Shown in pieces: positions 26,438 through 28,154 of a stretch of DNA of 64,000 nt. The notes under the pieces were generated by a model. The model was not told the origin of the DNA and ran no database searches. It was given only the letters and a program-made list of their open reading frames with translations. The stretch spans positions 1-64,000 of the forward strand of contig JAFRFD010000048.1 in the NCBI GenBank assembly GCA_017434525.1, given 5' to 3'. Position 1 is the stretch's first letter. Each line of letters begins with the position of its first letter. The position numbers were made by a program, and so were the translations under genes. The DNA is from Methanobrevibacter sp. (GTDB lineage: Archaea > Methanobacteriota > Methanobacteria > Methanobacteriales > Methanobacteriaceae).

Positions 26438-26827
26438 TTATTTTAAATCAATACTCATCTGTGCTAAATATCCTAAAAAGGTTGTAATCAATAAGGTTAT
26501 AACAATAATTGAAAAAACATGAAATTCGTAATCTGTGAACATTATATTTGGGGTTTTTGAGATAATCGAAAGGGAAAAATCGCAGATAACATCCACTATG
26601 ATAAATATCACTCCAACGATCAATCCTTCAATAACTTCATTTTCATATATGTTTCTAATGTAGAGTATTCCAAAAAATCCTGTTACTATAATCAGAATTA
26701 TTGGGATTACTATATTGAAACTCAAAAGTGAATTGCTGAAAATCTTGAGCGCCATCCATGTTGCAAGATATGTGATTATCCATATTAATATTCCATAGAT
26801 TATTGCTAATTTTAATTTCATATTCAA
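26438..26827 (-). CDS. Small four-helix membrane protein
   Basis: A 129-aa integral membrane protein with four hydrophobic helices (LKLAIIYGILIWIITYLATWMAL, NIVIPIILIIVTGFFGILYI, GLIVGVIFIIVDVICDFSLSII, FSIIVITLLITTFLGYLAQM). No family recognised. A minus-strand TATA (AAATATATAATC, about 26852-26863) gives it its own promoter. It leads the phosphopantothenate synthetase-UPF0200 operon; a connection with pantothenate or CoA metabolism is only positional. Confidence 0.7.
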   Translation of the reverse strand: MNMKLKLAIIYGILIWIITYLATWMALKIFSNSLLSFNIVIPIILIIVTGFFGILYIRNIYENEVIEGLIVGVIFIIVDVICDFSLSIISKTPNIMFTDYEFHVFSIIVITLLITTFLGYLAQMSIDLK

Positions 26828-26871
26828 ACCTTAATATTAGTTTGGTTTGAAAAGATTATATATTTTACTAA

Positions 26872-27002
26872 GTTAAAAAAAGTTTGGGATGATTAGGTAG
26901 CTACAAATTATAGCTACCTAATAACTTGTTTTACAAGTTTTTAGAGAAATGAATTTTAAAATTTGGCTGTTTAATCTATCTCTCTGGCTACATCGTAGCC
27001 AA
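26872..27002 (-). ncRNA. Candidate structured non-coding RNA with four hairpins
   Basis: The gap upstream of the membrane-protein operon holds four nested or tandem hairpins. Minus-strand order: TGGCTAC/GTAGCCA (27001-26985); an AGAGAGAT/ATTTCTCT pair (26985-26943) enclosing AATTTTAAAATT; AACTTG/CAAGTT (26939-26923); and an 11-bp stem TTAGGTAGCTA/TAGCTACCTAA (26921-26893), followed by a T7 run near 26882-26875. The second stem is complete only on the minus strand (G-U instead of A-C). A minus-strand TATA (TTTATATACT, 27030-27021) would start transcription near 27000, just at the first hairpin. No ORF lies inside. Confidence 0.5.
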
Positions 27003-27107
27003 GTTTATATTTGTTCTAATAGTATATAAACTTATTTGTATTTTATAAAAATTCAATTATACTTTATAAAAAAATTATATATCATTTGATATCATATTAT
27101 TTAATGA

Positions 27108-28154
27108 ATGACAGATTACAGCGAACATGAATTGTATCTAAGGAAAGTCCTTTCAAATTCAATTGGTTCTTTAAATCCTTCAGAAGATGCTAAAAAAGAA
27201 GCAAGAAAATATTCCAGCTCTTATTTTAATGATTATAAACAAAGGCTTTTGAATGAGTATGAAGGAAAAAGGTTAATGGACATTGACAATTCCGAGGTCA
27301 TTTCCACATCTTTCGGGGACACGTTAAGGATTACACAAAAGGAAGAGATTGATTTTGACATTTATGATAATGATTTTAAAAGTCAGATGAACAGTAACCT
27401 TAAGCTGCTTCCAAAAATAGGAATCAGAACAGAACAAAATCTAAAGGATAAGGGTTATACGACAATCGAATCGCTTAAAAATCATGACAGATACTGTGAT
27501 GCGGCATCAAAATTCATGGAAAACATCGATGATCTGTCATTTTGTGAGATTATTGAAATATTGGACAATAACAAATACTCAAAAAAATGCAGGGACAACG
27601 TTCTCAAGTCAATAAGCTTAACTGACAGGGAGAATTTCAAGTTTATGGATATTGAAACATTGGGCCTTTCAAACGTTCCAATAATATTGATAGGCATTGC
27701 TGAAATCAAAAAAAATAAAATCATATCTTCACAATACTTCTTAAGGGATATATACGAAGAGGGGGCGATTATTGAAGCCTACCTGTCACATTTGGATGAA
27801 GACTCCGTCCATGTAACATTCAATGGAAAAAGCTTTGATGTGCCGTTTATAAAAAATAGGTGCCGCTATAATAGGTTGGATGTTGATTTGGATTTGCCGC
27901 ACCTGGATTTGATGTATTTTGCAAAAAACCTATGGAAGGACGATTTGCCAAATTGCCAACTTCAGACAATTGAACGGGAACTATTCGGCATTGAACGTGA
28001 AGGGGATGTTCCGGGCCAGTATATTCCAAACTATTATAATACTTATTTAAGCGAAAGAAATATCGGACCGATTGTTCCAATAATAGAGCATAATCGTCAG
28101 GATATTGTTTCACTAGCCAGTTTTCTAGAGAAAATGTATGAGGAAGTAAATTAA
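27108..28154 (+). CDS. YprB/MrfB-like RNase H-fold 3'-5' exonuclease
   Basis: 348 aa. A helix-hairpin-helix-like region near 100-130 (LLPKIGIRTEQNLKDKGYTTIESL) is followed by an RNase_H_2 exonuclease domain with the DEDDh residues visible: FMDIETLG (D and E near 181-183), TFNGKSFDVPFIKNR (D near 244) and EHNRQDIVSL (H and D near 327-331). It corresponds to Bacillus YprB/MrfB, the exonuclease that works with the DUF1998 helicase MrfA in mitomycin lesion repair. An MrfA-like helicase is encoded at 55.65 kb. This copy lacks the C-terminal TPR of the Bacillus protein and abuts a HEAT-repeat gene. Confidence 0.85.
   Translation: MTDYSEHELYLRKVLSNSIGSLNPSEDAKKEARKYSSSYFNDYKQRLLNEYEGKRLMDIDNSEVISTSFGDTLRITQKEEIDFDIYDNDFKSQMNSNLKLLPKIGIRTEQNLKDKGYTTIESLKNHDRYCDAASKFMENIDDLSFCEIIEILDNNKYSKKCRDNVLKSISLTDRENFKFMDIETLGLSNVPIILIGIAEIKKNKIISSQYFLRDIYEEGAIIEAYLSHLDEDSVHVTFNGKSFDVPFIKNRCRYNRLDVDLDLPHLDLMYFAKNLWKDDLPNCQLQTIERELFGIEREGDVPGQYIPNYYNTYLSERNIGPIVPIIEHNRQDIVSLASFLEKMYEEVN

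Follow-up and report, generated by a model that had tools for sequence, protein, structure and literature searches.

The 64,000-nucleotide stretch of Methanobrevibacter DNA analysed here (hereafter the window) holds, between an RNase_H_2 gene and a gene for a 129-aa hydrophobic protein, a gap that raises two questions: does it encode a structured RNA, and would such an RNA be a transcription unit of its own or the leader of the gene downstream? The initial annotation had proposed an RNA of about 130 nucleotides with four hairpins on the minus strand. Fold and homologues bear this out: a structured small RNA of ~129 nucleotides lies at positions 26875-27003 of the minus strand, scores 137.6 bits with its covariance model and has 56 homologues. 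A ~130-nt transcript of this segment is predicted from sequence alone.

Fold, strand and boundaries of the RNA

In the window, the RNA folds with a minimum free energy (MFE) of −38.1 kcal/mol compared with −18.5 ± 3.3 kcal/mol for dinucleotide shuffles (z of −5.9), and none of 200 shuffles folded as well. Four hairpins, all on the minus strand, follow one another. At the 5′ end, hairpin 1 (26986-27000) is a stem of 6 bp, GGCUAC-GAU-GUAGCC, with 99.4% of its cells paired among the homologues. It is followed by hairpin 2 (26943-26985), which has 8+4 bp, one A·C mismatch, a large loop and 93% of cells paired, by the conserved 7-bp hairpin 3 (26923-26939; AACUUGU-AAA-ACAAGUU), and by the long 3′ stem of hairpin 4 (26892-26922), of 14 bp in the MFE fold.

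Covariation was analysed in two alignments. In 44 sequences aligned with MAFFT, an alignment not fitted to the model and read with a structure itself derived from the window sequence, changes on both sides were found in 11 of 36 pairs, compared with a shuffled mean of 4.2. In all 56 sequences, double changes occurred in 18 of 36 pairs versus 6.6 after shuffling, and none of 500 shuffles reached as high a count; this alignment leans towards the structure because it was fitted to the covariance model. There, 95.4% of cells pair, and slid-partner controls yield 2-6 double-change pairs. The signal is carried by hairpin 4 (11 of 12 modelled pairs) and hairpin 1 (three of six pairs), and double changes in hairpin 3 are single occurrences. 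A GC-to-AU double change in hairpin 1 (L026, L041, L042, L056, L058 and L062/L063) arose several times, since its carriers sit apart on the gene tree. Judged by this covariation, the structure of the RNA is under selection. The covariance search had been suggested across the Methanobacteriales; compensatory changes did emerge among the 56 species, within one genus-level clade rather than the whole order, and not in stem 2.

Hairpin 2 showed no covariation among the 56 homologues. Its loop, AAACAGCCAA, and its 3′ arm, AAUUCAUUUCUC, are nearly invariant in the alignment while the 5′ arm drifts, and the partition function leaves the loop largely unpaired. This stem thus appears conserved by sequence and not by covariation, and its pairing is plausible. 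Together, the invariant loop and arm span some 30 nucleotides, longer than a typical seed, and exceed the conservation that a stem needs, which suggests a face that contacts something. A switch pairing between UUGGCU in the hairpin 1 arm and AGCCAA in the loop was discarded, as the UUGACU and UUAGCU variants of the arm leave the loop unchanged.

Over the 56 homologues, paired cells comprised 180 G-U versus 15 A-C, and the mean fold z was −6.8 on the RNA strand versus −3.8 on the opposite one, which settles the minus strand as the RNA strand. The G-U argument for stem 2 made in the initial annotation agrees with this, as two of its G-U pairs would read A·C on the plus strand. The claim that the RNA contains no open reading frame held as well: none of conserved length was found on either strand across the homologues, the longest on the RNA strand ranging from 0 to 23 codons and differing among species. 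A plus-strand frame beginning ATGAATTTTAAA was dismissed, since it is shifted by small length changes among species.

Upstream of the RNA, a TATA box, TTTATATAC (27022-27030, minus strand), is preceded by a BRE-like AAATAAG; it is conserved, and nearly all homologues carry a TATA box upstream of hairpin 1. The centre of the box lies 26 nucleotides from hairpin 1, the usual archaeal spacing between TATA box and start, so that the RNA is predicted to start at about 27000-27003, at the first hairpin, where the initial annotation had placed it. At the other end, a U7 tract (26875-26881, minus strand) is a putative archaeal termination signal, with a run of 5-8 T following hairpin 4 in 52 of the 56 homologues. 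Of the 11-bp hairpin and T-run originally described, the T-run stands, the stem has 14 bp instead, and 10 nucleotides separate the two; this gap points to an archaeal U-tract and not a bacterial hairpin-U terminator. Just downstream of the intact copy in L041, a weak model match of 16.2 bits (L041:1666-1722) may represent an incomplete tandem copy of the 3′ portion.

Distribution and origin

Homologues were searched by blastn in 150 genomes, with the covariance model in 139 genomes of the family and with a rebuilt model in 152 genomes of the phylum; the large scans used stricter Infernal filters, so very diverged copies could escape them. The RNA was found in 56 of the 67 genomes that share the window's genus, in single copy and in the same gene neighbourhood, any further matches in a genome being faint reverse-strand signals from that one locus. 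Its single copy per genome rules out a mobile repeat. Elsewhere in the family, the covariance model scans gave no credible homologue in any of 16 further genera. A pattern scan matched 38 named Methanobrevibacter records, among them MAGs of M. thaueri and M. millerae, and no viral contig; it also matched L123, a contig of Peregrinibacteria, which was set aside as chance, as the covariance model did not match it. The window's own assembly (G000; 3.13 Mb in 173 contigs) has an estimated contamination of 7.9% and may therefore mix strains.

Among the genomes with the RNA is G034, which we take to be M. smithii ATCC 35061, so the RNA is probably present in M. smithii; G068, presumably M. ruminantium M1, gave no match. 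The RNA is also present in the cultured M. millerae SM9 (G014; genome in PMC4987999). The RNA-less count includes two genomes in which the locus falls at contig ends (G032 and G036), and G012 and G027 are outside the locus comparison. On the gene tree, the RNA-less G021, G030, G033, G063 and G066 form a sister clade, which makes one gain, followed by loss in G008 and perhaps G048, the simplest history. The RNA thus seems to have a single origin, in the common ancestor of a clade that holds M. millerae SM9 and, in all likelihood, M. smithii. At least one species (G008) has lost it, so it is not essential.

Known RNA classes and antisense searches

Against Rfam 15 the RNA had no match at gathering score and none at E up to 10 near any family threshold, the best sub-threshold match reaching 16.6 bits versus 76; in the whole window only a tRNA was recovered. 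Direct reading revealed no C box (RUGAUGA) and no D box (CUGA), and there was no Rfam match to a C/D box sRNA. Likewise, the 3′ end reads CAUCCCAAACUUUUUUU, not ACA three nucleotides from the end after a pseudouridylation-pocket hairpin, and no H/ACA sRNA was matched in Rfam. The flpD motif (RF01737) of Euryarchaeota is similarly a structured RNA motif from comparative genomics (PMC2864571); the present RNA, however, matched it neither at the gathering score nor with E values up to 10. The nearest systems are two intergenic sRNAs of Methanosarcina mazei. sRNA154 has a secondary structure through whose loops it contacts mRNAs, and it resembles the present RNA in its stable structure and its conservation within one genus; however, it is nitrogen-regulated, has known targets and belongs to a different methanogen order, and no sequence relation between the two was recognised (PMC5867862). 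sRNA162, likened here by description, is also a methanogen intergenic sRNA that acts on mRNAs, but it does so on cis- and trans-encoded ones through two domains (PMC3510493). No description of small or structured RNAs in Methanobrevibacter was found in the open-access papers searched. As far as sequence comparison can tell, the RNA is a new family of a kind already known, the archaeal intergenic sRNA.

Limited pattern searches in 8-25 genomes gave no conserved antisense target. TTTGGCTGTTT, an 11-mer antisense to the loop, had 58 matches beyond self versus 43 for the reversed control in 14 genomes, and AGAGAAATGAATTT, with one mismatch allowed, had 46 versus 21; the latter were rejected as targets because their positions were unrelated or coding. 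Matches to a two-part pattern were rejected too; apart from self, most lay in the conserved coding sequence of a GTPase-like protein. Also rejected was a recurrent match upstream of a metal P-type ATPase gene, where the 11-mer is not kept, the repeats are operator-like and a near-same form occurs in a genome without detected RNA. Upstream of this metal-transporting P-type ATPase gene, 2-3 spaced copies of AGTAATACTgAGTATTTAAATGAACTCAAAAAAAGTAATACT were observed across the genus (L174:1400-1640, L233, L257 and L277); they resemble a repeated operator that overlaps TATA boxes and may respond to metal.

Gene neighbourhood and possible modes of action

Wherever an RNA-bearing locus has sufficient flanking sequence, a divergent RNase_H_2 gene is followed by the RNA, the 129-aa protein gene and a gene for 4-phosphopantoate-beta-alanine ligase. 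In the window, the adjoining RNase_H_2 (PF13482) exonuclease-like protein is encoded at 27108-28154 (plus strand), and the 129-aa hydrophobic, probable membrane protein, which matched nothing in Pfam or NCBIfam, at 26438-26827 (minus strand). In G008, which lost the RNA, the RNase_H_2 gene appears split in two frames with a stretch missing (L140:1486-2446).

As the RNA lies on the same strand as the 129-aa gene, and always directly upstream of it in RNA-bearing genomes, it might be a cis-acting 5′ leader, a riboswitch or attenuator, of that gene and the ligase gene. Such a leader would be part of the downstream mRNA; the sequence, however, points to two units. The RNA has its own promoter and ends at the U-tract, and a separate promoter, AAAATATATAATC (26854-26866, minus strand), is conserved between the U-tract and the start codon of the 129-aa gene. 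This TTAGAAAAGTATTTAATATT-type element, ~55 nucleotides before the gene, is also present in the RNA-less G008. Spacing between RNA and gene varies from 133 to 260 nucleotides and reaches 678 in L061, and no alternative pairing between hairpin 4 and the core was seen. Moreover, presence of the RNA is independent of the gene, which is found with and without it: G008, G021, G030, G063, G033 and G066 keep the gene and lack the RNA. In G063, G030 and G071, of another genus, a methylated-DNA-cysteine methyltransferase-like gene occupies the position of the RNA; the RNA-less gaps measure 288 nucleotides in G021 and 131 in G008, and G033 and G066 are rearranged. Given the separate promoter of the downstream gene, and gains and losses of the RNA that do not follow this gene, we consider the RNA free-standing and a leader unlikely. 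That the gap merely holds a structured, non-transcribed sequence by chance, for which its AT-richness could speak, is hardly credible: sequence conservation over 56 species and the mean fold z speak against it, and the covariation refutes it in practice.

The comparisons above show that the RNA has homologues, keeps its structure, strand and promoter, arose once and does not depend on the gene next to it; this fits best with a free-standing intergenic Methanobrevibacter sRNA with its own promoter, acting in trans by mRNA pairing via the hairpin 2 loop, a reading to which we assign a probability of roughly 0.6. Transcription would run leftward from the TATA/BRE promoter to the U-tract, and hairpins 1 and 4 would cap both ends and stabilise the RNA. 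Hairpin 2 would present its single-stranded loop beside the invariant arm, and the loop would most likely base-pair in trans with at least one mRNA, altering its translation or stability as sRNA154 does. Against this count the antisense seeds, which turn up about as often as expected by chance; a protein or a small molecule would be an equally plausible partner for the loop. Hairpin 2 might thus bind a protein instead of mRNAs, the RNA being part of an RNP or titrating the protein. The length of the invariant face and the failure of a conserved antisense target to emerge favour such a scaffold or decoy, and the absence of kink-turn, C/D and H/ACA signatures on direct reading and of any Rfam RNP family match weighs against it; we hold it possible, if tentative. 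Doubtful to us is the wider proposal of a standalone structured RNA, gained once by the ancestor of the principal Methanobrevibacter clade of gut and rumen, with a nearly invariant core of ~30 nucleotides as the binding site for a specific protein or small molecule; if true, it would be a regulatory RNA mechanism undescribed in methanogens.

The trans-acting sRNA that we favour is probably a regulator. Methanobrevibacter dominates among the methanogens in the guts of ruminants and humans, and the RNA may be relevant to methanogen physiology and methane mitigation. Its function is directly testable, given the covariation support, its presence in a cultured strain (M. millerae SM9) and probably in M. 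smithii, and the natural loss mutants. Elsewhere in the window, the protein encoded at 22288-23154 matches FlaK (preflagellin peptidase) in part, with a score that falls short of the family cut-off. A recurrent intergenic element, GGCTGTTTTGGCTGTTTTTAGGTGGGTGCTTATATTTTGTATAGT, was also observed (L171, L184, L246 and L247); G065 has it three times, and it occurs in G010 too.
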